The notes under the pieces were generated by a model. It made no database searches, was not told where the DNA came from, and saw only the letters and a list, made by a program, of their open reading frames with translations. A stretch of DNA of 51,349 nucleotides from an uncultured Eubacteriales bacterium (GTDB taxonomy: Bacteria; Bacillota; Clostridia; Peptostreptococcales; Anaerovoracaceae). Below are positions 6,795 to 46,404 of this stretch, one piece after another. The stretch spans positions 1-51,349 of the forward strand of contig OMXT01000025.1 of assembly GCA_900315125.1 (NCBI GenBank). Direction: 5' to 3'. Position 1 is the stretch's first letter. Every line of letters starts with the position of its first letter. The translations under genes were made by a program, and so were the position numbers.

Positions 6795-6817
6795 GGCCGG
6801 TCGGGACTTTGTTCTAT
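6795..6817 (+). repeat. leader element copy (queF)
   Basis: GGCCGGTCGGGACTTTGTTC then TAT, ending 16 nt before the queF ATG and just ahead of its ribosome binding site GAAAGGA. One of about ten intergenic copies of the same short element in this window. It lies inside the operon, downstream of queE. Confidence 0.75.
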
Positions 6818-6833
6818 TGAGAAAGGAATTATC

Positions 6834-7325
6834 ATGACAACGAGAAAAGAAGAGGGAAGCGTAACGCTGCTGGGCAGCGGCAGCACCAGATACCCCCAGG
6901 AATACGACCCGGGGATCCTGGAGACATTCCAGAATAAACATCCGGAGAATGATTATTTCGTTAAATTCAACTGCCCGGAGTTTACCAGCCTGTGTCCGAT
7001 CACGGGTCAGCCGGACTTCGCGAATATCGTGATCTCCTATGTGCCGGCAGAGCGGATGGTGGAGAGCAAATCTCTTAAGCTCTATCTGTTCTCATACCGG
7101 AATACCGGTGAGTTCCACGAGGACTGCGTAAACCGGATCATGAAGGATCTGATCGCATTGATGGATCCGAAGTACATCGAGGTCTGGGGCAGGTTTACGC
7201 CCCGGGGCGGGATCTCCATCGACCCCTACTGCAACTACGGCAAGGCGGGTACTGCCTGGGAGGACGTGGCCCGGAACCGCCTGTTCCATCACGACATGTA
7301 CCCGGAGCGGGTAGACAACCGGTAA
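6834..7325 (+). CDS. queF: NADPH-dependent 7-cyano-7-deazaguanine reductase QueF
   Basis: A 163-residue, single-domain (Bacillus-type) nitrile reductase that turns preQ0 into preQ1. The nucleophilic Cys is in CPEFTSLCP (near residue 51), the general acid Asp in TGQPDFA, and the substrate Glu in [14 protein letters not shown] at 6834 follows GAAAGGA. The product preQ1 is the ligand of the riboswitch at 5453, which closes the feedback loop. Confidence 0.96.
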
Positions 7326-7358
7326 AGAAACGGCGGACGACAAACGGAGGATCGTAAA

Positions 7359-8039
7359 TTGAAAGCACTTGTTTTATCCAGCGGCGGCGTGGATTCCACA
7401 ACCTGCCTTGGGATGGCGGTAGATAAATACGGGAAAGACAGCGTTCTGACTCTTTCCATATATTATGGGCAGAAGCATCAGAAGGAGATCGAGGCAGCCC
7501 ATGCCGTTGCTGAGTTCTACGGCGTGGAGCATATGGACATGGATCTGACGCCCATATTCGCCTGGTCGGACTGTTCGCTGCTGCAGCATTCCGATCAGGA
7601 CATCCCGGAGGAGTCCTACGCGGAGCAGATCGCGGAGCGGGAGGGCAAACCGGTATCGACCTACGTGCCTTTCCGCAACGGGCTTTTCCTGTCCACGGCG
7701 GCGAGCATCGCGCTCTCACGGGACTGCGGCGTGATCTATTACGGCGCACATGCCGATGACGCGGCGGGGAATGCTTATCCGGACTGCAGCGCTCCTTTTA
7801 ACAAAGCCATGGCTGACGCTATTTATATCGGAAGCGGAGATCAGCTTCGGCTGGAGGCGCCCTTCGTCAATATCAATAAGGCAGAGGTGGTGCGGATCGG
7901 ACTGGAACTGGGCGTGCCCTACGAACTGACCTGGAGCTGCTATGAGGGCGGTGACCGGCCCTGCGGCAAATGCGGCACATGTATAGACCGGGCAGCGGCC
8001 TTCGCCGCCAACGGAGTGGAAGACCCGGCGCTGAAGTAA
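7359..8039 (+). CDS. queC: 7-cyano-7-deazaguanine synthase QueC
   Basis: A 226-residue ATP-dependent ligase that makes preQ0 from 7-carboxy-7-deazaguanine and ammonia. The N-terminal PP-loop SGGVDSTT (residues 8-15) binds ATP and the C-terminal Cys cluster CYEGGDRPCGKCGTC binds zinc. The start codon is TTG at 7359, with ACGGAGG 8 nt upstream and no better start nearby. Last gene of the operon; a strong terminator overlaps its stop codon. Confidence 0.95.
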   Translation: MKALVLSSGGVDSTTCLGMAVDKYGKDSVLTLSIYYGQKHQKEIEAAHAVAEFYGVEHMDMDLTPIFAWSDCSLLQHSDQDIPEESYAEQIAEREGKPVSTYVPFRNGLFLSTAASIALSRDCGVIYYGAHADDAAGNAYPDCSAPFNKAMADAIYIGSGDQLRLEAPFVNINKAEVVRIGLELGVPYELTWSCYEGGDRPCGKCGTCIDRAAAFAANGVEDPALK

Positions 8040-8062
8040 AGCGCCGGGTCTTCCGGATTTTT
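8018..8062 (+). terminator. intrinsic terminator of the que operon
   Basis: A 15-bp perfect stem (8018-8032 with 8040-8054) around a 7-nt loop that contains the queC stop codon, followed by GGATTTTT. Stop codon and terminator overlap. Confidence 0.9.
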
Positions 8063-8095
8063 GGTGCAGTTATTATTGCTCGGTAATATTACAGT

Positions 8096-8962
8096 TTACA
8101 GTGATTTGGAAGCCATGGGATAGCTGGCTCTGAAATCATTGGACTTATATTCCGCGTCTCTCTTATGTGTCTTGTTGAATGCCTTGTCGCTCTTGAGGAA
8201 GTATCTGTAGTGCGCGGCTCCTGCATCCCATGTGGCATCTGCGTTGTACCACTTGCTGCCGATCTTTACGATGTTCCATGCGTGGAGCCCGCCATTGGCC
8301 TCGCCGACGATGATGCGGCAGGGAACGCCGGACCTGCGGCACATGTCATAGAACAGGGCGGAATAGCCGTTGCATACAGCCCTGCCCTTTGCCAGAGCAT
8401 TGTAAGCGGTATATGCGGTGCTGCCGGTCTTATTATAGTTGTTGTCATATTTCACGTGTTTCGTGATGTATTTATAGATTTTCCTGACCTTTGTCTTGTC
8501 GCTGCCCCTGAGATGCATCTTCTTCAGGGTCCTGTTCAGCTTAGCGCGGTACGCCTTGTCCTGGGATTTGCTCAGTCTGTACTTGACCTTCTCTGTAACA
8601 TCGACGGTGTACTTGCCGTTTTCTTTTGTATAGGTGTAGGAGAAGGAATTGCCGTTAAAATTGTTCAGCTCCGCATAGTCGCCGTTTACGGTTGTCCCGT
8701 CATCGATGGATGAAAGGGTGCCAACGGATGCTCTTGCGAACTTGTGGAATCTGTCGTCGATCTTGTCCACGACCAGTGTGTACTCTATGGTGGAATCCAG
8801 ATCCATGACCCCTTCGTATACGTAATTCTGAGCGTCTGCGTAACTTGTGAATGTGGAGTCTTCGCTGTCCGCGTAGGAAACAGTCCCCGCGAAAAATGCT
8901 GCGATCATAACGGCTGCAGCAATGGTGAGCATGCGAATGATGCCTGCCTTGGACGTGTCCAT
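8096..8962 (-). CDS. secreted transglutaminase-like domain protein
   Basis: A 288-residue exported protein. The N-terminus (MDTSKAGIIRML then a hydrophobic run ending at TVSYADS, about residues 1-33) is a signal peptide. The C-terminal half is a transglutaminase-like cysteine-protease fold: Cys in AVCNGYSALF (near 197), His in GGLHAWN (near 229) and Asp in NADATWD (near 244). The middle is a basic, mostly helical region. I start at 8962 because AAGGAGG lies 7 nt upstream; an upstream in-frame extension to 9055 would run through a riboswitch and is not credible. Two c-di-GMP-I aptamers precede it, so it is likely a surface or cell-wall processing enzyme switched with lifestyle. Substrate unknown. 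Confidence 0.87.
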   Translation of the reverse strand: MDTSKAGIIRMLTIAAAVMIAAFFAGTVSYADSEDSTFTSYADAQNYVYEGVMDLDSTIEYTLVVDKIDDRFHKFARASVGTLSSIDDGTTVNGDYAELNNFNGNSFSYTYTKENGKYTVDVTEKVKYRLSKSQDKAYRAKLNRTLKKMHLRGSDKTKVRKIYKYITKHVKYDNNYNKTGSTAYTAYNALAKGRAVCNGYSALFYDMCRRSGVPCRIIVGEANGGLHAWNIVKIGSKWYNADATWDAGAAHYRYFLKSDKAFNKTHKRDAEYKSNDFRASYPMASKSL

Positions 8963-8983
8963 TCTAATCCTCCTTGTTAATGT

Positions 8984-9056
8984 AACTGGCTGCCATCTCA
9001 TGTAATGAGGAAGGCCCTCTAGCTTTGCGCCGCTGTCTTTCGGCAGTTTTGCCATT
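8984..9056 (-). promoter_or_regulatory. c-di-GMP-I (GEMM) riboswitch, gene-proximal copy
   Basis: On the minus strand: GGCAAA, a hairpin capped by GAAA, CGCAAAGC, GGGCCT and a second hairpin before GGCAGCC - the conserved blocks of class I c-di-GMP aptamers in order, with the GNRA tetraloop and its receptor. It ends about 14 nt before the SD sequence AAGGAGG and no terminator separates them, so this copy may act on translation. Confidence 0.88.
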
Positions 9057-9077
9057 TAATTGTCAGGTGTGGATGGA

Positions 9078-9112: not shown

Positions 9113-9167
9113 GCATCTTCACTCTGCTGCAGGATGAATATAAATCATCATGCCGATGAACTAATGC

Positions 9168-9241
9168 AACTGGCTGCCATCTCATGTTAAGAGGAAGGCC
9201 CTTTAGCTTTGCGTCCCTGCCTTTCGGCAAGTTTGCCTTTT
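9168..9241 (-). promoter_or_regulatory. c-di-GMP-I (GEMM) riboswitch, distal copy
   Basis: Same conserved blocks as the proximal copy (GGCAAAC, GAAA tetraloop, GACGCAAAGC, GGGCCT, GGCAGCC); the two are near-identical over about 73 nt and lie 184 bp apart. The changes are mostly in stem arms, as expected for a duplicated functional RNA. The GACGCAAAGC block is closer to consensus here than in the proximal copy. Confidence 0.9.
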
Positions 9242-9268
9242 AATTTTCCATTCGATTTATCTGCTATT

Positions 9269-9631: not shown

Positions 9632-9657
9632 GCCGGCGGAACAGGACTTTGTTGAAT
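9632..9657 (+). repeat. leader element copy (nadA), divergent
   Basis: GCCGGCGGAACAGGACTTTG followed by TTGAAT, ending 19 nt before the nadA ATG. It keeps the AGGACTTTGTT core but has a changed 5' half. It lies in a long leader of about 165 nt. Confidence 0.6.
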
Positions 9658-9676
9658 AAGAAAAGAGGAAAAGAAA

Positions 9677-10588: not shown

Positions 10589-10612
10589 TCTGATGGATGG
10601 AAAGGCCGAATT

Positions 10613-12310
10613 ATGAATAACGGAATCGATGTAGTGATCGTCGGATGCGGCGTCGGCGGGCTTTATACGGCGCTGAATATCCCGATGAACAGAAATATCG
10701 CCATCATTGCCAAGGGAGACTGTGAAGAGTGCGACTCTTACCTGGCCCAGGGCGGGATCTGCATGCTCCGCGACGAGGATGACTACGACGCCTATTTTAA
10801 TGATACGATGCGGGCGGGGCATTATGAGAATGACCCAAGGTCTGTGGATCTCATGATCCGGGGATCCCAGGACGTGATAAAAGACCTGATCGGCTACGGC
10901 GTGGATTTTCAGCGGAAGGAAGACGGGGAGCTGGACTTTACGAGAGAGGGCGCCCACTCCCAGCCCCGGATCCTCTATCACGAGGATATTACCGGCGAGG
11001 AGATAACGAAGCACCTTCTGGCGGCGGTCCGCCGTCTGCCCAATGTGAAGATCTATGAGCATGTGACGATGGTGGATATTCTGACGGCAGGTGAGGCGGG
11101 CCGGATCGGGGCAGCGGCCGGCAGCCCCATGGGCCGGGCGCTGCCCCGATCTGAGGAGCACATCGGTTACCTGGGCAGCGAACGGGAACGTCACGCTGCC
11201 GCCGTTAACGCGGAAGGTCACAGCGGCAGGACGGCAAGCCCTCTGGAGGGACTGGCAGGACTGAGTCAGGGCAGCAGCAGCGCCGGAGAGAATCCTGACG
11301 GAGCATCTGCGGGGACAGGCGGAGCATCGGCTGCGGTGCCTTACTGCAGAGGCATCATTGCTGTGGCGCCGGCGGACTCTGAGTTTGCCAGGGACTTCGG
11401 CGTAACAGAAGGAGGCTCGGGAGACCAGATCAGTTTCGACCCGGGAGCAGGAACGGGAGCACCGGCTGCAAACGGGAGTAATGCGCCCGGGCCGGCGCTG
11501 ACGGATAAAGGGGAGCAGGTCTGCGTGCTCCACGCGCCGGAGGTCGTATGGGCCTGCGGCGGCATCGGCGGTCTGTTCGAACATTCCACGAACTTTCCCC
11601 AGCTGACGGGAGACGCGCTGGCGATCTCGCTGAAGCACGGCATCCGTCTGGAAAACCCGGACTATATCCAGATCCATCCCACTTCTTTCTATTCGGAGAA
11701 GCCGGGCAGATCTTTCCTCGTGTCGGAATCGGTCCGGGGTGAGGGCGGCATCCTGCTGAACGAACACGGCAGGCGCTTCGTCAACGAGCTGCTCCCCAGG
11801 GACGTGGTGAGCAACGCGATATTCCGGGAAATGGCGGAAGAGGGGACCAAGCATGTCTGGCTCTCCATGGAACGGATCCCGAAGGATGTGATCGTCAATC
11901 ATTTTAAGCACATCTACGAGCACGGTCTGGAAGAGGGGTATGACTGTACGAAGGAGCCGATCCCTGTGGTCCCGGCCCAGCATTATTTTATGGGCGGCGT
12001 CTGGGTGGATACGGACAGCCGCACATCCATGGATCACCTGTATGCGGTGGGCGAGACCAGCTGCAACGGCGTCCACGGCAAGAACCGGCTGGCCAGCAAT
12101 TCTCTTCTTGAGAGTCTTGTATTCGCCAAACGGGCGGCGCATGCGATCACAGAGGAGTCAGCCCAGGTGACCATGAACCTGGACCAGGAAGAAGAGCTGG
12201 ACCTGAAGCTCTATGAGAACAGTAAGGATCTGGAGGAAAGCTACCGGGAGGCGGTACTCGGCGAGATCGAGCGAATGAAGCAGTTCCGGGAGCAGCAGAA
12301 GAATCGGTAG
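10613..12310 (+). CDS. nadB: L-aspartate oxidase NadB with low-complexity inserts
   Basis: A 565-residue FAD enzyme that oxidises L-aspartate to iminoaspartate for NadA. Visible are the dinucleotide motif GCGVGG (11-16), YLAQGGI (43-49), REGAHS (111-116), ESVRGEGGILLN (372-383), active-site Arg in PRDVVS and the C-terminal GETSCNGVHGKNRLASNSLLE (480-500). Odd: residues about 159-243 and 255-299 are Ala/Gly/Ser/Pro-rich inserts placed where other NadB proteins have a short loop, and the helical C-terminal domain is missing (only about 65 residues after the NRLASNS motif). The frame is open through the inserts, so they are translated. ATG at 10613 follows GGAAAGG. Confidence 0.93.
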   Translation: MNNGIDVVIVGCGVGGLYTALNIPMNRNIAIIAKGDCEECDSYLAQGGICMLRDEDDYDAYFNDTMRAGHYENDPRSVDLMIRGSQDVIKDLIGYGVDFQRKEDGELDFTREGAHSQPRILYHEDITGEEITKHLLAAVRRLPNVKIYEHVTMVDILTAGEAGRIGAAAGSPMGRALPRSEEHIGYLGSERERHAAAVNAEGHSGRTASPLEGLAGLSQGSSSAGENPDGASAGTGGASAAVPYCRGIIAVAPADSEFARDFGVTEGGSGDQISFDPGAGTGAPAANGSNAPGPALTDKGEQVCVLHAPEVVWACGGIGGLFEHSTNFPQLTGDALAISLKHGIRLENPDYIQIHPTSFYSEKPGRSFLVSESVRGEGGILLNEHGRRFVNELLPRDVVSNAIFREMAEEGTKHVWLSMERIPKDVIVNHFKHIYEHGLEEGYDCTKEPIPVVPAQHYFMGGVWVDTDSRTSMDHLYAVGETSCNGVHGKNRLASNSLLESLVFAKRAAHAITEESAQVTMNLDQEEELDLKLYENSKDLEESYREAVLGEIERMKQFREQQKNR

Positions 12311-12332
12311 CGGGTCGGTCAGGACTTTGTGC
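12311..12332 (+). repeat. leader element copy (nadC)
   Basis: CGGGTCGGTCAGGACTTTGT then GC, directly between the nadB stop and the nadC ribosome binding site (AGAAGGAG at 12333). It forms the whole intergenic spacer. Confidence 0.72.
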
Positions 12333-12346: not shown

Positions 12347-13198
12347 ATGAATGGAATCACCATGGGGCTGAATGTGGATCCCCTGATCCTGTCAGCGCTT
12401 AGGGAGGATATAACAAGTGAAGATGTTTCCACCAATGCGGTCATGCCGGACTATGTGAAGGGAACGGTGGATCTCATTGCAAAGGAGGACGGTGTGATCG
12501 CCGGCCTGGACGTGTACGCAAGGGTCTTTTACCTGCTGGATCCGGAGACGGTCTGCGCGTTCGCCATTAAAGACGGGGATGAAGTGAAGAAGGGCCAGAC
12601 CATCGGCCATGTGGATGGGGATATCCGCGTGCTGCTTTCCGGCGAGCGGACGGCCCTGAATTATCTGCAGCGCATGAGCGGCATTGCGACATACACCCGT
12701 TCTTTCGCCCGGCTGCTGGAGGGATCCGGCGTGAAGCTTCTGGATACCCGCAAGACAACGCCGAACAACAGGATCTTCGAGAAGTACGCTGTGAAAGTCG
12801 GCGGCGGTACGAACCACAGATATAACCTGACGGACGGGGTCATGCTGAAGGACAACCACATCGCCGCGGCAGGGGGGATCACCCAGGCGGTGACTATGGC
12901 GAGGGATTATGCTCCCTTTGTACGGAAAATCGAAGTGGAAGTGGAGGATCTGGATATGGTGAAAGAGGCGGCGGACGCAGGTGCGGACATCATCATGCTG
13001 GACAATATGGATCACGAGACCATGAAGAAGGCGGTTGCGATCATAGACGGCAGGGCGGAAATCGAGATTTCCGGCAATGTGACCCGGGAGAACGCCGCGT
13101 CCCTTGTGGATCTGGGCGTCGACTATATTTCCAGCGGAGCATTGACTCATTCTGCGCCGATCCTGGATCTTTCTATGAAACATCTGAGAAGGCTGTAA
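12347..13198 (+). CDS. nadC: nicotinate-nucleotide pyrophosphorylase NadC
   Basis: A 283-residue quinolinate phosphoribosyltransferase that makes nicotinate mononucleotide from quinolinate and PRPP. Type II PRTase motifs: REDITSEDVST (19-29), SGERTALNYLQRMSGIAT (97-114), LDTRKTTPNNRIFEKYAVKVGG (122-143), MLKDNHI (162-168) and the C-terminal EISGNVTRENA. Normal length. AGAAGGAG lies 6 nt before the ATG. Completes the de novo route begun by NadA and NadB. Confidence 0.96.
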   Translation: MNGITMGLNVDPLILSALREDITSEDVSTNAVMPDYVKGTVDLIAKEDGVIAGLDVYARVFYLLDPETVCAFAIKDGDEVKKGQTIGHVDGDIRVLLSGERTALNYLQRMSGIATYTRSFARLLEGSGVKLLDTRKTTPNNRIFEKYAVKVGGGTNHRYNLTDGVMLKDNHIAAAGGITQAVTMARDYAPFVRKIEVEVEDLDMVKEAADAGADIIMLDNMDHETMKKAVAIIDGRAEIEISGNVTRENAASLVDLGVDYISSGALTHSAPILDLSMKHLRRL

Positions 13199-17101: not shown

Positions 17102-17120
17102 AACAAAGCCCTGACCGGCC
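17102..17120 (-). repeat. leader element copy (deoD)
   Basis: Minus strand: GGCCGGTCAGGGCTTTGTT, starting a few nt after the predicted transcription start and ending 20 nt before the deoD ATG. With the eno copy this is the best match to the consensus. Confidence 0.8.
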
Positions 17121-19288: not shown

Positions 19289-19311
19289 GGCCGGTCAGGG
19301 CTTTGTTCTAT
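19289..19311 (+). repeat. leader element copy (eno)
   Basis: GGCCGGTCAGGGCTTTGTTC then TAT. It starts about 5 nt after the predicted transcription start. A 55-nt stretch separates it from the eno ATG, longer than at most copies. Confidence 0.8.
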
Positions 19312-22693: not shown

Positions 22694-22796
22694 GGCATAC
22701 TTCCTTTCTGAACAGGATAATAATAAAGTCTGAATATTGCAAGTTCCGAAACCCTGTGATCCGGCCTGATATTGACGGATATTCCGCAGTACCGTA

Positions 22797-22826
22797 TTGA
22801 CCTTTCTCTGAGAGTGATGATAGAAT
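22797..22826 (+). promoter_or_regulatory. promoter of the ArsB/NhaD-type permease and terD
   Basis: TTGACC, 18 nt, TAGAAT on the plus strand, giving a leader of about 118 nt. It is divergent to, and only 28 bp from, the minus-strand promoter of the galactosidase. Confidence 0.72.
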
Positions 22827-22853
22827 TTCACTCAGACCAACTAACTCTGATTC

Positions 22854-22891: not shown

Positions 22892-22912
22892 GGAACAAAG
22901 CCGGAACCGGCC
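22892..22912 (-). repeat. leader element copy, upstream of the galactosidase promoter
   Basis: Minus strand: GGCCGGTTCCGGCTTTGTTC. It precedes the minus-strand -35 box, so it is not in that leader; on the plus strand it lies reversed in the permease leader. One of two intergenic copies that break the usual arrangement. Confidence 0.55.
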
Positions 22913-25210: not shown

Positions 25211-25231
25211 CGGGTCAGGGCTTGGTTCTAT
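25211..25231 (+). repeat. leader element copy, reversed relative to genes
   Basis: CGGGTCAGGGCTTGGTTCTA then T on the plus strand (one change in the core). It abuts the stop codon of the minus-strand glycosidase and lies 39 bp before the membrane-protein start, opposite in orientation to both. Confidence 0.6.
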
Positions 25232-26175: not shown

Positions 26176-27413
26176 TGCACATTCTCCTTTTCTGGGAACA
26201 AAGCCCTGGCTGCGGCTGATTCTTCCGGCTGGCCTGCCCGGTGGAATACCCAGTTCTTCTGTACGAGGAACGAGCATACGGCCAGACCAGTATCCGTGAT
26301 CGCTTTGATCAAAGGCAGAGGCAGCGGGAGGATAGAGAGTACGGAGACAACGGTGGAACTGGCGGCCATGATCCCCAGAAACAAAATGAAATAACGGATC
26401 ATCTGCCCCGCCGGCGCCCCGCTTTTTGCGTTATTTTCTTCGAAGGACCAGAACCGGTTGAGAAGGAAGTTTACACTGCCCGACATGATCCGCGCGATGA
26501 CCGTTGCTGCAAGGATGGTCCCGAAAGCCGTGTCCATCAGCGCAATGGTTCCGGAGCCGAAGAGCATGATCAGTATGGTGAAGAGACCCAGGTCTATGCC
26601 TGCGGAGATCAGGGAAGCGGCAATATACCGAAGAGGCGTCCGGTAAATACGGACAGAATCTCTGACCGTCTGGAAATGGGAGCTCCCGTTGCCCGCCTCG
26701 TAGACAGTAGTTATAGGGATCATCCGTATATCCCGGGCACAGGCGGTGAGAAAATTCATCTCGTATTCGTACCTGTCTCCCGGCGTGTCCAGCGCCTTTG
26801 CGAAAAGCCGCCGGGGTATGGCCCGCAGGCCGGTCTGTGTGTCCGGGCACCGGACGCCGGTGGTCAGCCGGAAGTAGAGGGCAGAAAAACTGTTGCCCAA
26901 CCGGGATCTCAGGGGCACCTCCGCGCCCCCGAGATCCCGTGTCCCCAGCAGCAGAGCCGGCGCCCTCTGATTCCCGCCCGGCGCCGGCCCTGCCTCACTG
27001 ACCGCAGCCCCTGCGTCCTCCCGTTCCGCCTCCCGGCAGACGCGGAGAATGTCCTTCGGCAGATGCTGGCCGTCCGCGTCCGCCGTTACAATATATGAAA
27101 CCTTCGGAAAGTGGCTTGCGGTATATTGGATCCCCGTCCGGAGCGCTGCGCCCTTGCCCCGATTGGCGGGGTGGGTCAGGACCATGCAGCCGAGCCGCTC
27201 CGCTTCACGGAATATCGGCTGGTAATCCGGCCCGCTCCCGTCGTCTACGACTATGAAGGGACCGCTGAAGCCAGCGATCCGAAGATCGCTGATCAGGATC
27301 AGCATCGCCGTTTCCGGTTCATACGCCGGGATAAGTACGGCGGTGCGGTCCGGCAGTCTGTTATTTTTTGTTCTTGCGGTTTTAGTATCTGATTTATCCT
27401 TAGGCGTGTTCAT
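26172..27413 (-). CDS. bifunctional glycosyltransferase family 2 / GtrA protein
   Basis: A 413-residue protein. The N-terminal GT2 domain has VLIPAYEPE (26-34), VVDDGSG (55-61), NRGKGAALRTG (83-93) and the D-x-D-type TADADGQH (about 110-117). From residue about 265 a GtrA-like domain gives four membrane helices with NFLLNRFWSFEEN (about 316-328) and a repeat of the motif in QKNWVFHR. This fusion transfers sugars to lipid carriers at the membrane. A Glu/Ala/Gly/Pro-rich insert sits at about 128-150. AAAGGAG precedes the ATG. Co-transcribed with the glycosidase. Confidence 0.9.
   Translation of the reverse strand: MNTPKDKSDTKTARTKNNRLPDRTAVLIPAYEPETAMLILISDLRIAGFSGPFIVVDDGSGPDYQPIFREAERLGCMVLTHPANRGKGAALRTGIQYTASHFPKVSYIVTADADGQHLPKDILRVCREAEREDAGAAVSEAGPAPGGNQRAPALLLGTRDLGGAEVPLRSRLGNSFSALYFRLTTGVRCPDTQTGLRAIPRRLFAKALDTPGDRYEYEMNFLTACARDIRMIPITTVYEAGNGSSHFQTVRDSVRIYRTPLRYIAASLISAGIDLGLFTILIMLFGSGTIALMDTAFGTILAATVIARIMSGSVNFLLNRFWSFEENNAKSGAPAGQMIRYFILFLGIMAASSTVVSVLSILPLPLPLIKAITDTGLAVCSFLVQKNWVFHRAGQPEESAAARALFPEKENVQ
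26195..26215 (-). repeat. leader element copy (phosphodiester glycosidase)
   Basis: Minus strand: GCCGCAGCCAGGGCTTTGTT then C, directly before the glycosidase ribosome binding site and inside the 3' end of the GT2-GtrA coding sequence, where it encodes the protein's C-terminal tail (AAARALFPE). Confidence 0.68.
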
Positions 27414-31324: not shown

Positions 31325-31530
31325 GATTCACAGTGTGTGATGTCTTGGAATCCATGAGACGCCGGGGCGATGCGACTGACCAAATGGCGAGATTCGGCAC
31401 TTTCGCGGTCCAGACGCTGGAGCCGCCCCGGAAACCATTAGATCCTGGGGCGATACGATTGACAGAATGGCGAGATTGCTGCATTTCACGGATTCACTGT
31501 GTGAGCTGCCCCGGGATCTGATGTCGGAGC
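31325..31530 (+). repeat. degenerate tandem repeat, 83-bp period
   Basis: Units start near 31325, 31408 and 31491 (the third partial). Recurring blocks are GATTCACNGTGTG, GGGGCGATNCGA and AATGGCGAGATT; the latter two recur exactly 83 bp apart (31364 and 31447). The third unit runs into the 3' end of the MoxR gene on the other strand, so the protein's last residues are repeat-derived. No reading frame of note. Confidence 0.7.
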
Positions 31531-33141
31531 TGCCTCAGAATTCATCGATTCGATCTCCCGGGCAATGCGGCTTTGGGTGTCATCGAACAGCAGCTCCCGG
31601 TTATGGCGGTAGTAGGCGTCGCAGCCGAAATTCTCAACAAACCAGCTGGTATCGTAGCCGGCGGTGATCTCTGTGACGAAAATGACCAGTTCCTGACCCT
31701 GGCCGAAGGAGGCTTCCAGGAAACGGAATACGTTGTCAAACCGCGTGCCGGTCTCATCGGCGATAGTCTGGCGCTCTTCGGTCAGTTTAGTAAACTGCTC
31801 CCGGATCAGATCCATGGCTTCCTCGGGCGACAGAACCGAGTTTCCGCTTTCCGCCTCTTTCAGCAGCGCAGCGTAGGACGTCAGCAGTGAAATTTCCTGC
31901 ATGGCAAGATCACGCTTTTCCTTGTCGTTCTGGCCCGCGTCCTGGGCCCGCTTCAGGGATTGCTCCCGGCGGTCTGCAAGGGCAGTCATGATCGCTGCGG
32001 GGGAAGCTGGGGTATCCGGGAAGCCCTGGCCATGGGCAGCAGGCAGACATTCCGCAGCACCGACCGAGCCAGGACTTTGTTCGGGGTGATCAAGACCCAG
32101 GGAGGCGCGGAATTTCTTCAGGTCGGCGAAGACCGCGTCGGTCAGGGCATCCTGGCGCCGGGTGCGGCGGGCGTCCTCTGCGAGGCGGGAGAACAAAAGC
32201 CCGATGACTGCCAGCTTCTCATCGAAGGGCGCTGTCCGCAGCTCGGTCATGGTCACGGGCAGCCATTTGCCCGCGAGGATCGATGCCACGTTGTATGTTT
32301 TCTGATACTTGTTGTACAGGCTCAGATAGTTGGCGAAATCCTTCGCGATCTCCGGCATCTGGATGTACTGCTCAACCACTTCCCGGTCGACAGAAAGTCC
32401 CAGCTTCTCGTAAGCGTATATCAGCTCGCTCAGATCCTCCCAGCCCCGGGCAGTGGCGAAACGCATGCCGTCCACCGTGTTTTCTATACGGTAAAAGTTA
32501 TCCTTCTTAATGTCCAGATAACTGATGACTGCACCGTGAAGATTGTTCCTGCGGGCGTATTCTTTCCAGACGCGGAAGTCCCACGTTACATCGATCCGCT
32601 TGACCCGGTCCAGGGTAACTACGTCAAAATCCCGGGCGGACCGGTTGTACTCCGGCGGGTTCCCGGCGGCGACGATCAGCCAGCCGGGGGGCATCTTTCG
32701 ATTGCCGAATGTCTTGTTCTGCAGAAACTGGAGCATGACAGGAGCCAGGGTCTCGGATACGCAGTTGATCTCGTCCAGGAACAGGATGCCCTCGCGGATG
32801 CCTGTGCGCTCCATCATGTCATAGACGCTGGCGAGTATTTCGCTCATGGTATATTCCGTGATGGTCACTTCTTCTCCGTCATAGGTCCGGTGCTCGATGA
32901 AGGGCAGTCCGATGGCGCTCTGGCGGGTATGGTGGGTTATGGTGTAGGCGACCAGACCTACGCCGGTTTCTGAGGCGATCTGGGTCATGATCTGGGTCTT
33001 GCCGATGCCCGGAGGACCCATGAGCAGCACGGGGCGCTGCCGGTTCTCGGGGATCAGATAATTGCCCAGTTCATCCCGGGTAAGATAGGCGCGGAGTGTG
33101 TTCGTGATCTCCTGCTTCGCCTGTTTTATGTTCATTGACAT
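31486..33141 (-). CDS. MoxR-type AAA+ ATPase
   Basis: A 551-residue AAA+ ATPase. Walker A GPPGIGKTQ (42-50), Walker B ILFLDEIN (119-126), sensor 1 in VAAGNPPEYNRSA (157-169) and an Arg finger region near ARDFD. MoxR proteins act as chaperones with a VWA partner to mature or activate other proteins under stress; the VWA gene lies directly upstream. Odd: residues about 351-383 form a Pro/Ser/Gly/Ala-rich insert that contains an antisense copy of the leader element, and the last residues (PTSDPGAAHTVNP) are encoded by an intergenic-type repeat. ATG 33141 is preceded by CCAGGAGCAACTGAC. Confidence 0.9.
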   Translation of the reverse strand: MSMNIKQAKQEITNTLRAYLTRDELGNYLIPENRQRPVLLMGPPGIGKTQIMTQIASETGVGLVAYTITHHTRQSAIGLPFIEHRTYDGEEVTITEYTMSEILASVYDMMERTGIREGILFLDEINCVSETLAPVMLQFLQNKTFGNRKMPPGWLIVAAGNPPEYNRSARDFDVVTLDRVKRIDVTWDFRVWKEYARRNNLHGAVISYLDIKKDNFYRIENTVDGMRFATARGWEDLSELIYAYEKLGLSVDREVVEQYIQMPEIAKDFANYLSLYNKYQKTYNVASILAGKWLPVTMTELRTAPFDEKLAVIGLLFSRLAEDARRTRRQDALTDAVFADLKKFRASLGLDHPEQSPGSVGAAECLPAAHGQGFPDTPASPAAIMTALADRREQSLKRAQDAGQNDKEKRDLAMQEISLLTSYAALLKEAESGNSVLSPEEAMDLIREQFTKLTEERQTIADETGTRFDNVFRFLEASFGQGQELVIFVTEITAGYDTSWFVENFGCDAYYRHNRELLFDDTQSRIAREIESMNSEAAPTSDPGAAHTVNP

Positions 33142-33202: not shown

Positions 33203-33224
33203 GCAACAAAGCCATGACCGGCAT
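33203..33224 (-). repeat. leader element copy (MoxR gene)
   Basis: Minus strand: ATGCCGGTCATGGCTTTGTT then GC, in the 147-nt gap between the VWA gene and the MoxR gene, about 60 nt before the MoxR ATG. One change in the core (CATGG for CAGGG). Confidence 0.65.
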
Positions 33225-33288: not shown

Positions 33289-34689
33289 CTACGTCCGGGG
33301 CAGTTCGTCCCAGTCTATCATGTCCGGTTCGTCTGTTTCCGCGTCCTCCCGGGCTTTCCGCAGGTCCGGCAGCTCCAGCACCAGCTTGATAGCCCAGGCG
33401 GGTACATGGACCATGGGCGGCGGTTCCGCCAGCATGATGAAGGCAGTGTCATAGTCCGGGCGCTTTTTCGGATAGATGCCCATGCCGTCGGTGAAGTAGA
33501 TCAGCCCCCGCAGCGCGTGGAAGGCTCCGGATTTCTGCAGTTCCTCCACGTGCTGGAAGACCGGCCGGAAGTCCGTGCTGCTGCCGCCGCTGAGCCGGAA
33601 GCTGGCCATATAATCCTGCAGGTCATCCAAATCGTGGATCGCGTCGTCGGAACGGACCCGGTTGTCGCACTGAATGATCCGTATATTTACTTTCCTCGTA
33701 TAGGTCTCCGTGCTCCGCAGGATGGCATAGGTGCATGCCAGGAACTCCCGGACCAGGTCGCCGGAAGTGGACATGGAGGTGTCCACAGCGATGACCAGAT
33801 CCTCGATCCGTTTTTCTTCCCGGGTCTCCGGGGGCTCGATCAGGGGCATGTTCCCGTAATGCTGCAGTCCGAATGTGTAATAAATATAGTCGAAGGAATC
33901 CGTGTCCGCCTCCATGACCTCGTGAGGCGCGGCGAACCGCCGGAGAAAATTCCGGTAATCCACATCGTCTTTTACTGCTACCTGGATCTGGTCGTGCATC
34001 AGATCCCCGCCGGCGCCCTGGTCGGAGGGCATGGTCTCCAGGGACGTGCGGGTCCGGTCAGCAATATCTTTCCACCGGGTATCCTGCTCCTGGCGGCGTT
34101 CCTGCTCCCGCTGCTCTTCCGGAGTCCACAGCCCGTGGTCGTCGAACAGGAAGGCACGGCTCAGCATCTGCAGCCGGTTCCGGTCTGGCGGATTCCGCTC
34201 CAGTTTCAGATATACCCCCTCTGCGGTGATCACCTTCATGTCCCGGCAGCATTCGCCGATGAACCGGGATTTGAGAGGGGACGCCTGTTCTTCTATGCAG
34301 GCGTAGTTCTGTTCGGAAAGCAGAGCTTCTACTGCCACATCACAGGCGAGATCCCACAGAGCCGGGTCTTTGCCCCGGGCTTTCCATATGTGCCGCAGGA
34401 TGCAGTGAAAAAGGACATGCATATAGCCCCGGTTCACCGCCTGGCGGCTCCGCAGATAACGGCGGGCCAGCCAGCTTCCCTGGTACCACAGGGACTCCCC
34501 GTCTGTGGCGACAGTGCCTGTGGGCGCGGGCATACCGCTGCTCACAACACCCTCTGCGTCGCGGAACTCCAGGGCGCAGAGCGCTGCGTCCAGATAGGGA
34601 AAACTCATGTATAATTCATTGCGGGAGGCAGTCAGGACCTCCAGGCCGATCGCGCCCATGGATCCCGCCCTGCCGGCAGATTCATTCAT
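33289..34689 (-). CDS. VWA-domain protein with N-terminal metallopeptidase-like domain (DUF2201)
   Basis: A 466-residue protein. The N-terminal half matches the DUF2201 putative metallopeptidase domain, with a His-rich helix HVLFHCILRH (91-100). A charged linker (about 185-290) leads to a C-terminal VWA domain whose metal site is complete: D-x-S-x-S in AVDTSMST (301-308), Thr in SSTDF (370-374) and Asp in YFTDGMG (398-404). VWA-MoxR pairs act together: the ATPase remodels a target that the VWA protein recruits. GAGG lies 7 nt before ATG 34689. The LRR-like gene upstream ends 9 nt away. Confidence 0.9.
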   Translation of the reverse strand: MNESAGRAGSMGAIGLEVLTASRNELYMSFPYLDAALCALEFRDAEGVVSSGMPAPTGTVATDGESLWYQGSWLARRYLRSRQAVNRGYMHVLFHCILRHIWKARGKDPALWDLACDVAVEALLSEQNYACIEEQASPLKSRFIGECCRDMKVITAEGVYLKLERNPPDRNRLQMLSRAFLFDDHGLWTPEEQREQERRQEQDTRWKDIADRTRTSLETMPSDQGAGGDLMHDQIQVAVKDDVDYRNFLRRFAAPHEVMEADTDSFDYIYYTFGLQHYGNMPLIEPPETREEKRIEDLVIAVDTSMSTSGDLVREFLACTYAILRSTETYTRKVNIRIIQCDNRVRSDDAIHDLDDLQDYMASFRLSGGSSTDFRPVFQHVEELQKSGAFHALRGLIYFTDGMGIYPKKRPDYDTAFIMLAEPPPMVHVPAWAIKLVLELPDLRKAREDAETDEPDMIDWDELPRT

Positions 34690-38102: not shown

Positions 38103-39293
38103 ATGGACAGGACACAGGATGCAATAGATGTAAGCAGCAGGATCGATACGATGGTCGACGAGTCGCTGGAGAGCGATGATTTCAGCGAACTTGCCCAGGG
38201 GATCCAAAAGGAAATGGAAAACTACCGAACCTTCGGGCAGAAGGAACAGTCACTGCAGATGAAGAACGGCAAGCTGTTCGTTCAGCGTCACGGGGACTGG
38301 CAGCGCCGGGAAGCCGGGGAACAAAGGCAGTCTGCGGGGAACAGGCAGACAGTGCAGGCCGGCGCAGTCCCCTTCCTGCAGAAGAAACCGCGGAAAATCA
38401 AGGGCATCCTGCAGCTGGTCTTCGGTATTTTTAATATTATGGTGGGCGCGGAGATGATCGCCGATCCCTCTGACCGGATCGTCGGAGTCATATGGACGGC
38501 GGGATTTGCGTACATGCTGTACCGGGGAATCGTGAACCTGATGGCATACAGGAATTTCAACCAGTACGCTGCCTATGTGGGAAACAGTGACAGGATTGTC
38601 TTGTCGGACCTGGCGGGATTTATGAATAAGCCCGAGGAGCGGGTAAAGAAGGATCTTCTGCGGATGATCGGCATGAACATGCTGCCCCAGGCGAGGTTCG
38701 ACAAAGAACAGAGAGTTCTGTTCCTGACAGAAGAAGGGTACAGGAATTACCAAAAGAACAGAAAGTCCGGGGCTGCCGGTGCACAGAGCGAAAGGCAGAG
38801 CGGTGGACAGCAAGACAGGCAGCCCACAGAGGAGAGCCGGAGAGTCGTAAAGGAAGGTCAGGCCTTTGTTGCAGAAATAAGAAAAGCGAATGACGCCATA
38901 CCCGGGGAGGAGATGAGCGGCAAGCTGGATCAGCTGGAGAATAACCTGCGGAGGATCTTTTCCCAGGTGGAGAATGATCCGGCAAGCGCGCCCAGCCTGA
39001 GAAAGTTCATGAATTACTATCTTCCGGCAACCCGGAAGCTGCTGAACGCGTACGTAAAGCTGGACAGCCAGGGTGCGGGCGGCTCCGCATCGGAGACGAA
39101 ACGGGACATAGAGAGCGCTGTGGATGCTGTGAACGGCGCCTGCAGTGTTCTGCTGGACCAGATGCTGGAGGATCTGACCATGGATGTGCAGTCGGACATC
39201 GATGTGATGAAGAACATGCTGGAGAGGGACGGACTGGCCGGCCAGGAAATGGCAGGGCCTTTTGGGAACGAAGAGCATCCGGACAATCAGTAA
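38103..39293 (+). CDS. XpaC-like membrane protein, telA partner
   Basis: A 396-residue protein with the same plan as the one at 4.3 kb: an acidic, Gln-rich N-terminus (1-85), two membrane helices (about 102-118 and 125-142), a winged-helix-like segment (about 160-215, DLAGFMNKPEERVKKDLLRM), a Gln/Ser-rich linker and a C-terminal XpaC domain (about 255-390) with FMNYYLPATRKLLNAY. XpaC and TelA are neighbours in many Firmicutes and probably act together at the membrane; the activity is unknown. ATG 38103 follows AGGAGG. First gene of a four-gene operon. Confidence 0.85.
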   Translation: MDRTQDAIDVSSRIDTMVDESLESDDFSELAQGIQKEMENYRTFGQKEQSLQMKNGKLFVQRHGDWQRREAGEQRQSAGNRQTVQAGAVPFLQKKPRKIKGILQLVFGIFNIMVGAEMIADPSDRIVGVIWTAGFAYMLYRGIVNLMAYRNFNQYAAYVGNSDRIVLSDLAGFMNKPEERVKKDLLRMIGMNMLPQARFDKEQRVLFLTEEGYRNYQKNRKSGAAGAQSERQSGGQQDRQPTEESRRVVKEGQAFVAEIRKANDAIPGEEMSGKLDQLENNLRRIFSQVENDPASAPSLRKFMNYYLPATRKLLNAYVKLDSQGAGGSASETKRDIESAVDAVNGACSVLLDQMLEDLTMDVQSDIDVMKNMLERDGLAGQEMAGPFGNEEHPDNQ

Positions 39294-42217: not shown

Positions 42218-43087
42218 ATGAAGGGAATTATACTGGCGGCAGGCCGGGGAACGAGACTTTATCCGATCACAACATCCATATGCAAACCGCTGCTGCCGGT
42301 TTATGACAAACCGCTGGTCTACTACCCCATATCCCTTATGGAAACGGCAGGGATCCGGGACACGCTCATTATCACGCCGCCGGGATATAAGGACGCCTTC
42401 GTCAAGCTGCTGGGCGACGGGTCCCGGTTCGGCATGCATATAGAATACCGCACCCAGAAGGTGCAGAAGGGCATCGCGGACGCTCTCCTGGTCGGTCAGG
42501 ACTTTGTGGGAAAAGACTCAGTGTGCCTGATCCTGGGAGACAATATACTCTTTGGACCGGCACTGCGCCGCAAGCTGCGAAAAGCAAAGAGTCACGCGAA
42601 GGAGGGCGCCGGTATTTTCGGCTACTATGTGATCGATCCCCGGCCCTTCGGTGTCGTGGATTTTGACGATGACGGCAGGGCGGTCGCCATAGAGGAGAAA
42701 CCCAGGAGGCCCCGCTCCCACTATGTGGTGCCCGGTGTTTATTTTTACAGTAACGATGTAATAGATATCGCCCGGGATGTGAAGCCCTCGCCCCGGGGCG
42801 AGATGGAAATCACGACGGTAAATAACATTTACCTGGAGCAGAACCGCCTCCACGTGACGAAGCTGGGCAATGAGTATACCTGGTTCGACGCCGGGAATGC
42901 GGACAGCCTGTTTGAGGCGGCAGGCGCTGTCCGGGCAGCCCAGCGCTCCGGCCGGATGGTGGGATGTCCCGAGGAGATCGCGTTCTACAATCAGTGGATC
43001 ACCAGGGAGCAGCTGGAAAAGTGCGCGGACCGGATGAAGAAGACAAACTACGGAAAATACCTGGACGCCATCGTCGACGAGTTCTGA
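42218..43087 (+). CDS. rfbA: glucose-1-phosphate thymidylyltransferase RfbA
   Basis: A 289-residue enzyme that makes dTDP-glucose from glucose-1-phosphate and dTTP, the first step towards dTDP-rhamnose. Signatures: GIILAAGRGTRLYPIT (3-18), KPLLPVYDKPLVYYPI (24-39), LILGDNILFG (about 106-115), VDFDDDGRAVAIEEKPRRPRS and TWFDAGNADSLFEA. Full length. ATG 42218 matches family starts; the upstream binding site is weak. rfbB, rfbC and rfbD are not adjacent, which is unusual. Monocistronic with a terminator. Confidence 0.94.
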   Translation: MKGIILAAGRGTRLYPITTSICKPLLPVYDKPLVYYPISLMETAGIRDTLIITPPGYKDAFVKLLGDGSRFGMHIEYRTQKVQKGIADALLVGQDFVGKDSVCLILGDNILFGPALRRKLRKAKSHAKEGAGIFGYYVIDPRPFGVVDFDDDGRAVAIEEKPRRPRSHYVVPGVYFYSNDVIDIARDVKPSPRGEMEITTVNNIYLEQNRLHVTKLGNEYTWFDAGNADSLFEAAGAVRAAQRSGRMVGCPEEIAFYNQWITREQLEKCADRMKKTNYGKYLDAIVDEF

Positions 43088-43950: not shown

Positions 43951-43978
43951 TGTAAACATAGGAATAACCGGATGAACT

Positions 43979-44005: not shown

Positions 44006-44018
44006 ATCGGAGGTCTAT

Positions 44019-46277
44019 ATGAATGCGAAAAGCACGAATTTATTCAGGAATACATGCTTAGTTATTGCTGCGGCTCTGGTGATCACAGGGCTTCTGTGGG
44101 CAGGCTCCTGCATTCAGGGAGGAGGGCAGGTACTGACGTGCCCTGTTTATGCTGAGTCCGACGCCGGTACAACTCCGGGCAGTACAGATCCGTCGGGGGA
44201 TCCGGGAGCGGCGGACCCTGTTCAGCCGGTGCAGACCGTGGACCTTGCGGCTGCGGGTGCGGTACTGAGCCCGATATCGGACCAGAAATACACAGGCTCG
44301 GCGCTGAAGCCTGCTGTCACGCTGCAGATCCCCGCATCCAAAGCGGCAGGGGCAGCCGGAACGGAAACGGGCATGGTGACGCTGAAAAAAGGAACAGACT
44401 ACAAGGTGACCTATGGAAACAATACCTCCGTAGGAACCGCGTCAGTGACCATTACTGGAACCGGCAGCTACAGCGGAACGGTGAGCGGCACATTCCGCAT
44501 CATGCCGAAAACCATAACATCCGGCATGATCGGCGGCATAAATAAGACGTATATCTATACATCCAAGCCGGTCACACCCTCTCCAAAGGTGAAGAACGGA
44601 AAGACGACGCTGAAAAAGAACAGGGATTATACCGTTGCCTATAAGGATAATGTAAACGAAGGAACAGCAAAGATCATCATTACAGGTATCGGCAATTTTA
44701 CCGGTACGGTGACGGTCACATTTAAGATCCAGCGGATCTCCATGTCGAAAACGTCGATAACATTCCCGAAGATCACATATAACGGCAAGGCACGGACGCC
44801 GACGCCTACAGTAAAATACGGCAGCAGCAAGCTGAAAAAGGGCACAGATTATACGATCACCTACAGCAATAATACGGAGGCGGGCAGGGCATCTGCCGTG
44901 CTGAAAGGAAAAGTCAGCTATAAAGGCTCTGTTACAGTGACATTCCGCATCAGCCCAAGGGATATCGCGAAATCTACGGTGAGCAGCATTCCGGCCGCGG
45001 CGTATACCGGGGAGGCGATCGTGCCGGACTTTACCGTGAAGTACGGCAGCACGCCCCTGATCTGGTCGAAGGACTATACGTACTATACGAGCGATACCCT
45101 GAAGGTGGGTACGGCGAAATTATACATCCGTGGGAAAAGCAACTACAGCGGGGTCAAGGTCGTAAAGTTCAAGATCAAATCCCGCAGCATATCGAAGGCG
45201 GCGATCCAGAGCATCCCGGATCAGATCTATACCGGCGAAACGGCAGAGCCGAAGGTGACGGTAACGGACGGAGCGGACGTGCTGAAAGAAGGGACGCACT
45301 ACAGAGTATCCTATCTCAACGCCGTCAATGCCGGCAAAGCAAAGGTGAAGGTGACGGGCAGAGGTCTCTACTCGGGGAGTATAACCAAGACATTCTCCAT
45401 CGTTCCCCGATCGCTGGACAGCAGCTGCCTGCGGGAGATTGCCGACCAGATATATACCGGGAGCGGCCTGGAGCCGGACGTAACGGTGAAGGATGGCAGC
45501 TATACTCTCGTGAAAGGAAAGGATTATTCTGTTTCTTACAGTTCGAACCGGTCCGTGGGGACTGGCACGGCACGGATCACGCTGAAAGGAAATTACACCG
45601 GGACGCTGCGTCAGTCATTCCGCATCGTATCTTCCAAAAAGAGGACCGCGGTAAGTGAATCGGCTGCAGAGGAGGCGCTGTCTGACGTATCGTCTATCAG
45701 CGATCTTGATGTGATCCGTTATGACGGGAAGGATCTGCAGCAGGGCCCGGACTTTGTCATAGAGAAAAAAGCCATGAGCGGCGGCAGCGTCCAGGTAATA
45801 ATCACATTTACCGGCGAATATAAAGGCAGCTATACAGTGGAGTTCTGGGAAGACGATACCGAAGGACTGAGCAAGGGAGATCTCCTGTCCATCGGCGGAC
45901 TGGAGTACGAGGTGATCAACGCCAGGAAGCATACTGTAAAAGTAACCGGAGCGGAGAGCAGCGGAATCCGGAGTCTCTCCATACCGGATACCATCCAGCC
46001 GGACGGTGCGAAGTACCGGGTCACAGCAGTGGCCGGGTCGGCTTTCCGGGGATGCAGCGGGCTGACCCGCGTCAGCATTGGAAAATATGTGACATCTGTT
46101 GGCGCATCCGCGTGGTACGGAGACAGCAAGGTCAGCAGGGTAACATTCCGTGGAACGTTGTTGAAATCCATTGGGAAGAAGGCCTTCCGGGGTATCAGCA
46201 AAAAGGCAAAGGTCAGCGCGCCGAAAAAAGTACTGAAAAAGTATAAGAAACTGATTAAAAAGTCGGGCGGATTCTGA
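44019..46277 (+). CDS. secreted multi-repeat Ig-like protein with BspA-type LRR
   Basis: A 752-residue exported protein. Signal peptide about 1-47 (hydrophobic core LVIAAALVITGLLWAG, end near VYAES). After a Thr/Pro/Gly linker come six Ig-like repeats of about 75 residues and a seventh, degenerate one (about 85-610), each with a YTG...P..TVK, L.KG.DY.VSY.NN, G.A...TG.G.Y.G, FRI pattern. The C-terminus (about 615-752) has BspA-type leucine-rich repeats (SIPDTIQPDGAKYRVTAVAG, KVSRVTFRG) ending in the basic KKVLKKYKKLIKKSG tail common in clostridial surface proteins. No sortase motif. Likely an adhesin or wall-associated protein. Confidence 0.85.
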   Translation: MNAKSTNLFRNTCLVIAAALVITGLLWAGSCIQGGGQVLTCPVYAESDAGTTPGSTDPSGDPGAADPVQPVQTVDLAAAGAVLSPISDQKYTGSALKPAVTLQIPASKAAGAAGTETGMVTLKKGTDYKVTYGNNTSVGTASVTITGTGSYSGTVSGTFRIMPKTITSGMIGGINKTYIYTSKPVTPSPKVKNGKTTLKKNRDYTVAYKDNVNEGTAKIIITGIGNFTGTVTVTFKIQRISMSKTSITFPKITYNGKARTPTPTVKYGSSKLKKGTDYTITYSNNTEAGRASAVLKGKVSYKGSVTVTFRISPRDIAKSTVSSIPAAAYTGEAIVPDFTVKYGSTPLIWSKDYTYYTSDTLKVGTAKLYIRGKSNYSGVKVVKFKIKSRSISKAAIQSIPDQIYTGETAEPKVTVTDGADVLKEGTHYRVSYLNAVNAGKAKVKVTGRGLYSGSITKTFSIVPRSLDSSCLREIADQIYTGSGLEPDVTVKDGSYTLVKGKDYSVSYSSNRSVGTGTARITLKGNYTGTLRQSFRIVSSKKRTAVSESAAEEALSDVSSISDLDVIRYDGKDLQQGPDFVIEKKAMSGGSVQVIITFTGEYKGSYTVEFWEDDTEGLSKGDLLSIGGLEYEVINARKHTVKVTGAESSGIRSLSIPDTIQPDGAKYRVTAVAGSAFRGCSGLTRVSIGKYVTSVGASAWYGDSKVSRVTFRGTLLKSIGKKAFRGISKKAKVSAPKKVLKKYKKLIKKSGGF

Positions 46278-46291
46278 TCCGCCCCCTTTTT
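46265..46291 (+). terminator. terminator overlapping the surface-protein stop codon
   Basis: GGGCGGA, loop TTCTGA (which holds the TGA stop), TCCGCCC, then CCTTTTT. Confidence 0.82.
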
Positions 46292-46328
46292 CTGCGGAGA
46301 ATGTTTTTTGTGATTCCTGTGAAGCGGG

Positions 46329-46358
46329 TTGTCACGGCTTCGCCTGCGATGGTACAAT
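46329..46358 (+). promoter_or_regulatory. promoter of glmM-dtd-ygjP-like operon
   Basis: TTGTCA, 18 nt, TACAAT. Transcription would start near 46365, 20 nt before the leader element. Confidence 0.7.
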
Positions 46359-46385
46359 AAGAGGCAGTGTAAAGTGAATGAAAAG

Positions 46386-46404
46386 TCCGGTCAGGGCTTT
46401 GATG
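46386..46404 (+). repeat. leader element copy (glmM)
   Basis: TCCGGTCAGGGCTTTGATG: exact core with one late change (GATG for GTTC). It lies in the glmM leader, 39 nt before the ATG. Confidence 0.72.

Follow-up and report, generated by a model that had tools for sequence, protein, structure and literature searches.

A short DNA motif with species-specific spellings in an uncultured Eubacteriales bacterium and its relatives, a candidate word for self-DNA uptake

The window analysed here is a stretch of 51,349 nucleotides (contig OMXT01000025.1 of assembly GCA_900315125.1) from an uncultured Eubacteriales bacterium of the Anaerovoracaceae. Besides an enolase gene (eno) and the genes named queF, nadA, deoD and glmM in a first-pass annotation, it contains a short element that recurs between and within its open reading frames (ORFs). 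The first-pass annotation described the element as lying on the coding strand upstream of start codons, apart from two reversed copies, and proposed that it functions in the 5' part of mRNAs. Here we describe the distribution of the element in the window, in its genome and among related genomes, and weigh whether it may act as a DNA-level word in the uptake of self-DNA.

Copies in the window were located with the 15-mer core GGTCAGGGCTTTGTT, and mismatches were counted against this core. All ten sites listed in the first-pass annotation were recovered at 0-3 mismatches with a shift of 0-7 nt, which confirms that the repeat is real. The full 19-mer put forward at that time fits only four window sites at three mismatches or fewer, compared to none in each of 100 shuffles of the window. 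At three to four mismatches the 15-mer also matches many other, probably chance, sites in the window, and the copies with three mismatches at 9639 and 22908 rely on the earlier placement by eye. The sites are as follows, including two that had been overlooked (queF, nadA, deoD and glmM are the first-pass names).

6799..6813, plus strand: copy with 2 mismatches, upstream of queF
9639..9653, plus strand: copy with 3 mismatches, upstream of nadA
12317..12331, plus strand: copy with 2 mismatches, separating ORFs 10613-12310 and 12347-13198
17102..17116, minus strand: exact copy of the core, upstream of deoD
19293..19307, plus strand: exact copy of the core, 59 nt upstream of the enolase ORF
22894..22908, minus strand: copy with 3 mismatches, flanked by divergent ORFs, co-oriented with minus-strand ORF 20753-22831 and opposing plus-strand ORF 22951-24219
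25213..25227, plus strand: copy with 1 mismatch, antisense to both adjacent minus-strand genes
26197..26211, minus strand: copy with 2 mismatches, in the final codons of ORF 26172-27413, which lies upstream, and preceding the called gene 25228-26175
33205..33219, minus strand: copy with 1 mismatch, between minus-strand ORFs 33289-34689 and 31486-33141
38856..38870, plus strand: overlooked copy with 1 mismatch, inside predicted gene 38103-39293, in frame GQAFV
42494..42508, plus strand: overlooked weak match with 2 mismatches, inside a gene
46389..46403, plus strand: copy with 1 mismatch, upstream of glmM

The match at 42494 may be ordinary coding sequence, as a homologue has GEDFI at the position of its GQDFV. 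Of the two copies described as reversed, the one at 25213 does oppose both neighbours, but the one at 22894-22908 opposes one ORF and has the sense of the other.

The element across its own genome

The genome from which the window comes (G000) comprises 2.315 Mb in 101 contigs. In the whole genome GGTCAGGGCTTTGTT occurs 55 times exactly, 142 times at one mismatch or fewer and 275 times at two or fewer, compared with 0 matches at one mismatch or fewer and 2 at two or fewer for the mirror control (the pattern read backwards). Together with the shuffles of the window, this places the recurrence beyond chance, as the first-pass annotation had argued. Among the matches listed, 99 of the 142 copies (55 exact and 44 with one mismatch) were classified, in 60 stretches and the window. 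Taken with their surroundings, these 99 copies share the conserved block GCC-GGTCAGGGCTTTGTT-C, on either side of which the sequence is A-rich, and the spelling of the word in this genome is GGTCAGGGCTTTGTTC. The 15-mer part of the element as first delimited is thus conserved, but its CTAT is not; instead, GCC precedes and C follows the 15-mer.

Most of the classified copies (69 of 99) are intergenic, compared to 12.6 of 99 for random positions in the same stretches, with a further 1.3 on gene edges. The other 30 lie inside predicted genes, and 11 of them belong to the 55 exact copies. Genes were called with a home-made hexamer finder and checked by homology only where stated, and errors in some gene calls and start positions are certain; the copy at L098:9564 was called antisense in a probably spurious ORF. 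Six of the 99 copies overlap the stop codon of a gene on the other strand (e.g., ...GTKP*).

Among the 66 intergenic copies that were classifiable by sense, 45 have the orientation of the next gene and 21 the opposite one. The impression of a leader has a basis, because the intergenic copies follow the sense of the next gene about 2:1, and in the window copies are found near start codons. However, the description of each copy as lying on the coding strand upstream of a start codon does not extend to the genome, given the 30 copies in predicted genes and the 21 that oppose the next gene, and even within the window copies are found in genes (38856 and 26197-26211). A genome scan therefore shows a preference for intergenic DNA and for the sense of the next gene, but not confinement to leaders.

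Conservation at orthologous leaders was not seen either, the element being absent, by eye, from the 20 eno leaders inspected out of 80 relatives fetched. The closest enolases of named genomes are 81-85% identical and come from two metagenome-assembled genomes (MAGs) labelled Ruminococcaceae and Oscillospiraceae, followed by mostly uncultured Lachnospiraceae MAGs, a large share of which bear isolate names of the rumen type. A match to a known RNA family was also sought, and Rfam gave none in nine stretches with copies.

A core word shared within the genus

The core shared by the variants of the motif is GGCTTTGT. In 398 kb sampled from G006, a congener assembled as a single contig, no other 8-mer is as strongly over-represented; 9 of the 20 stretches in this sample were picked around 10 matches of CAGGGCTTTGTT. 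In coding sequence GGCTTTGT was observed 131 times, compared with 14.5 expected from 8 shuffles that preserve the protein, the codon usage and the dinucleotides at codon junctions, and in intergenic sequence 26 times compared with 2.2 from a Markov estimate. The junction dinucleotides were kept because AAA-G contexts could mimic the word when only codon usage is preserved; the enrichment persisted with them, and an artefact of codon context was rejected.

With 20 shuffles the coding expectation in G006 was 18.1, and the excess was found in all six reading frames. Observed and expected counts were 25/4.8, 16/0.8 and 28/1.1 in the sense frames and 3/0.7, 52/10.6 and 7/0.1 in the antisense frames. 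Coding sequence of the congener G008 gave 40/4.2 with the frames taken together, and that of G010 gave 15/2.2, with 14 more copies between genes. The congener G012, which has few copies, was a clean negative (8/6.7), so that the signal is not a product of the shuffle method. Within the own genome, a sample of 427 kb made up of the window and stretches away from the listed 15-mers again had GGCTTTGT as its top 8-mer (coding 51/8.8, intergenic 14/1.7), although one of the six frames had 0 copies compared with 0.3 expected. Intergenic density exceeds genic density in G000, G006 and G010.

The coding excess on both strands, the overlaps with stop codons and the variant spellings that lie largely inside genes of the congeners point to a signal at the level of DNA, and we judge it very probable that the motif belongs to the DNA and is not primarily a leader of mRNAs. 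As a unifying function, a 5' mRNA element that affects translation or stability, or that is bound by a small RNA or a protein, is rejected on the enrichment in sense and antisense coding frames relative to protein-preserving shuffles; the motif also occurs outside the sense strand of 5' untranslated regions. The sense bias of the intergenic copies and the positions near start codons are what such an element would lead one to expect, but with the coding enrichment, the copies in predicted genes, the eno leaders that lack it and the absence of an Rfam match set against them, the first-pass proposal has become very improbable.

The long form belongs to one species. At one mismatch or fewer, the 142 copies of GGTCAGGGCTTTGTT in G000 compare with 0-4 in each of 16 congeners. 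G006 has its own spelling, AGGCTTTGTGC, often preceded by an extra A, and exact copies of it number 114 in G006, 21 in G008, 9 in G007, 5 in G002 and 3 in G000 (mirror controls 0-4). The spelling of G010 is GGCTTTGTT, found in 22 of 28 copies in a sample. Top words in other congeners are all weaker, GGCTTTGAT being among those of G009, and CTTTGTTC and TTCTTTGT among those of G002 and G007; a k-mer and shuffle comparison gave no clear dialect word in G012.

Counts of GGCTTTGT were surveyed in 71 genomes, of which 17 belong to the genus, 26 to the family and 28 to the order. Four genomes of the genus are rich in it, with 827 copies in G006 (mirror 70), 564 in G010 (77), 494 in G000 (68) and 384 in G008 (18), corresponding to about 360, 332, 213 and 256 per Mb, respectively. 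In the remaining 13 genomes of the genus the density lies between about 10 (G003 and G014) and about 100 (G007) copies per Mb, and none of the 26 family and 28 order genomes exceeds about 87. The contigs sampled from G008, and those from G010 except C84 (picked for an ATPase match), were chosen for holding the search words, and the densities in these samples (313 and 547 per Mb) are therefore inflated relative to the genome-wide values. When 12 eno loci of named MAGs taken to be of the same genus were pooled, no enrichment was seen (1 compared with 1.35). Taken over the genomes, it is highly likely that the element of the window is one species' spelling of a genus-wide motif with the core GGCTTTGT.

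Origin of the copies and rival explanations

How the motif came to lie in genes was approached by comparing six exact genic copies with solved structures. Four of the six had a homologue, and in all four the segment of the motif aligned without a gap. Two alignments are clear, namely a 3-methyladenine DNA glycosylase (EKVRALL compared with EDVERLL) and a response regulator (L115, EQSPDL, compared with the three best solved structures), and two, an aldo/keto reductase and a glutamine-amidotransferase-like protein, are weak; for the other two copies no homologue of solved structure was found. Genic sites at two mismatches or fewer in the sampled stretches of G000 had a non-self homologue in 6 of 34 cases, 5 of the 6 being gapless, and three further sites matched their own genome only. 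The sole gapped case is the same response regulator, which is gapless against the solved structures. In G006 a homologue was found for 4 of 20 genic sites, and 2 of the 4 were gapless, all at low identity. An origin by base substitution rather than by insertion is favoured on these few alignments.

The same comparison bears on a reading in which the long form of G000 was spread by copying or insertion as a dispersed extragenic repeat, like the repetitive extragenic palindromes (REP), the bacterial interspersed mosaic elements (BIME) or miniature inverted-repeat transposable elements (MITE). In that case an imperfect palindrome would contribute the 15-mer as one of its arms, and the coding excess of GGCTTTGT would be a separate matter. 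Like these repeats, the G000 copies are mostly intergenic (69 of 99) and lineage-specific, and some form inverted pairs: two 45-bp pairs have conserved arms (L116:1264-1308 and L155:1240-1284). The intergenic copies of G010 follow strong hairpins, with a mean minimum free energy of -16.4 compared with -9.7 for shuffled sequence (n=11). However, most copies in G000 are single arms; an arm-like match about 30 nt upstream was present in 8 of the 99, and a search for the upstream arm gave only a weak palindrome. Of the properties of REP, extragenic position is thus seen in 69 of 99 copies, yet mostly as solo arms. No Y1_Tnp transposase (PF01797) of the REP-associated type (RAYT) was found in the genome, with 0 matches compared to hits in 5 of 14 control genomes, other transposase families not having been searched. 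Also against a repeat are the 11 of 55 exact copies in predicted genes, the gapless in-frame segments in the four that had a homologue, and the enrichment of the core in the coding sequence of the same genome away from long copies. A dispersed-repeat history of the long G000 form is possible, but as an account of the motif we regard it as unlikely.

The hairpins of G010 could also suggest an intrinsic-terminator-type structure in which a GC-rich hairpin is followed by GGCTTTGTT, and some G000 copies, by eye, flank or follow terminator-like hairpins. In contrast, the regions upstream of the G000 copies fold like shuffled sequence (-8.8 compared with -8.5, n=69), and genic copies on both strands are left unexplained by termination. 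There is hardly any probability left for this as the primary role, and termination is more likely a secondary use of the motif, as has been described for pairs of uptake signal sequences (PMC1852404).

Replication polarity was assessed by assigning leading and lagging strands from GC skew over 20 stretches of G006. The core GGCTTTGT is balanced (79 leading and 81 lagging), and the extended form GGCTTTGTG leans slightly to the leading strand (39:27). The same approach applied to Escherichia coli Chi in four stretches gave 29:18, a small control. An apparent strand bias of AGGCTTTGTGC in G006 was left unused, since orientation was available for 100 of the 114 places (64 of 64 forward and 36 of 50 reverse).

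Mobile DNA offers a second comparison. A prophage region of 59.8 kb in G006 (about 562-622 kb) holds a single copy of the motif, where 25 would be expected from the density in the sampled stretches and about 21 from that of the whole genome. Its bounds were set from gene content (terminase, portal, capsid, tail protein and two large serine recombinases), and its last 10 kb are not assignable to phage. The result is to be read as no enrichment and not as active avoidance, because composition alone is estimated to give about three copies, and it is a single observation. A second region of the same contig (C1 1763-1798 kb; L286 and L287) has 44% G+C and 2-3 motif copies and is possibly another mobile region.

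A Chi-like recombination hotspot, or a polar segregation motif such as the FtsK-orienting polar sequences (KOPS), would resemble the motif in being an over-represented, octamer-sized word of host DNA, present at about 360 per Mb in G006 and enriched in the host but not in the prophage. Unlike such motifs, the core has no leading-strand bias, its spelling differs between congeners of one genus, its extended flanks are conserved and the form in G000 extends over about 18 nt. We consider this explanation highly unlikely.

Somewhat better placed, though still decidedly unlikely, is a site for an abundant or chromosome-organising DNA-binding protein (a nucleoid, segregation or occlusion factor) that is kept by selection at many places. 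The strand-independent enrichment at the DNA level and the lack of enrichment in the prophage agree with it, and a motif that changes together with its reader could yield dialects. On the other hand, matS and Noc sites are palindromic and most copies of the motif are not; the core is without replication polarity, and its density differs strongly among congeners, from about 10 to 360 per Mb.

A possible role in DNA uptake

As presented in the literature, the DNA uptake sequences (DUS) of the Neisseriaceae and the uptake signal sequences (USS) of the Pasteurellaceae, the groups for which sequence-specific uptake is described, are over-represented words that are near-equally divided between the strands, allowed in genes and common between them, often arranged as inverted pairs that serve as terminators, and diversified into dialects (PMC3630211, PMC1852404). 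Like DUS, the motif is short and non-palindromic, has hundreds of copies on both strands, in genes and between them, and forms dialects around a small core (PMC3630211, PMC1852404). It differs from DUS in belonging to another phylum, in its unrelated sequence, in its lower density, in the longer form of G000 and in that no PilB/PilT pair was found in G000 and G006. Similar to USS are the core with weaker A-rich flanks, the near-equal strands and some use in terminator-type hairpins (PMC1852404); the USS core AAGTGCGGT is reported in 927-1,516 copies (PMC1852404), and GGCTTTGT in about 380-830 in the four rich genomes.

Of the readings weighed here, a system that works in this way is the most likely, and this preference rests on the copy number, the excess in six frames, the strand balance, the dialects, the scarcity in the prophage, the gapless genic copies and the presence of comEC, comEA and dprA. 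We give about an even chance to the motif being a watermark of self-DNA that biased uptake and recombination maintain, and judge the case similarly balanced for its acting in DNA uptake or another sequence-biased import. In such a process a DNA receptor of the competence machinery, extracellular or in the cell wall, would prefer fragments with the local spelling, and the imported fragments would recombine into the chromosome. Alleles bearing the word would then accumulate by molecular drive wherever the protein sequence permits, and leaders and trailers would be its most permissive sites.

The genes for DNA import are widespread in the genus. ComEC (PF03772) was found in 14 of the 17 genus genomes, including all 13 good ones, and ComEA (TIGR00426) above the cut-off in 16 of 17. 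DprA (PF02481) exceeded the cut-off in 6 of the 8 genomes searched and was not found in the other two, G003 and the 83%-complete G010; one of the six, G014, has only a 43-residue match. The known DUS and USS systems use type IV pili, and PilB-like ATPases (E < 1e-127) beside a PilT-like one were found only in the congeners G004, G009 and G013, the names being assigned from E-value or score and length. What was found instead in G000 and G006 is an ATPase of the CpaF type, within a Tad-like locus. G000 has in addition a weaker T2SSE match (C44, E 2e-11), and G005 and G008 have shorter ones that might be PilT-like. For Liberibacter, a connection between Tad pili and the uptake of DNA has been reported (PMC8513845). 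That a presumably Gram-positive, Lachnospiraceae-like lineage, probably of the rumen, independently evolved its own sequence-specific uptake with GGCTTTGT dialects, possibly through a Tad pilus or a ComEA-type receptor in place of the word-binding minor pilin (ComP, ComN) of a type IV pilus, is a tentative proposal to which we give somewhat less than an even chance.

Several observations weigh against a role in uptake. ComEC and ComEA are present also in motif-free congeners, and no PilB/PilT-like ATPase pair was found in G000 and G006, only Tad-type loci. The own comEC runs off the end of a contig, and that of G006 is split by the prophage region of about 60 kb (C1 ~562-622 kb; L279, L280, L169 and L236) into an N-terminal ORF of 678 aa and a C-terminal ORF of 95 aa that abut in the alignment to four congener loci, reminiscent of prophages in competence genes elsewhere. 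With comEC interrupted in this way G006 is probably not competent at present, and the motif in its genome may be a record of past transfer.

Other difficulties lie in the motif itself. The 8-mer reaches no more than about one copy per 2.5 kb and the 15-mer of G000 one per 16 kb, compared to about 1 per kb for DUS, and the long form (~18 nt) of G000 is mostly intergenic with a 2:1 sense bias. Close inverted pairs are not in excess, with 1 compared to 3.9 expected in G000 (an expectation that is inflated because the stretches were chosen around copies), 0 compared to 0.4 in G006 and 2 compared to 1.6 in G010. In G008 there was no intergenic GGCTTTGT in 7.3 kb. The mirror pattern is an imperfect null, as some order genomes of ordinary density exceed it 4- to 6-fold (137 compared to 21 in G027), and homologues were scarce in the comparison of genic sites. 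The doubt about uptake comes mainly from the missing classical pilus and from the long, mostly intergenic form of G000, to which a repeat history may have been added. Given the lack of an excess of pairs, the lower density and the failure to find the known type of pilus in G000 and G006, we describe the motif as working like an uptake sequence and assign it to no family.

We recognised no report of an uptake-type word for Firmicutes or Clostridia in the open-access literature, and a genome screen of Veillonella parvula is described as having yielded no sequence of at least 10 bp present at least 100 times (PMC5397411). If uptake is the correct explanation, the motif would be a third, independent case of sequence-specific uptake, with several dialects inside one genus, and the word-bearing and word-free congeners would allow comparative tests of how dialect and receptor evolve. 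It would also point to natural transformation in bacteria for which, to our knowledge, there is little evidence of it.

Some further words and structures were noted along the way. A family of words around GGGAGCA and CGGGAGCA is over-represented in coding sequence of G006 (L157-L176), G000 and G007; GGGAGCA is distributed 106:40 in favour of the leading strand in G006 and is a possible Chi for the genus, though the leading strand also carries most genes. The TTGACACA/TGTGTCAA and TTCCGCTAA families are other repeated intergenic words of G006 (L157-L176) that look like separate dispersed repeats, and G012 has a GTGTCAAG family. The window's eno leader carries CCGCAGTGCGG, and in many named relatives (L019-L025, L027-L029, L033 and L062) a small hairpin of the CCGTTC..GAACGG type is seen, by eye, directly before the ribosome binding site of the enolase gene. 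The only Rfam matches in the window are two c-di-GMP-I riboswitch aptamers at gathering scores, arranged in tandem on the minus strand (8978-9063 and 9161-9246) near the start of ORF 8096-9055.

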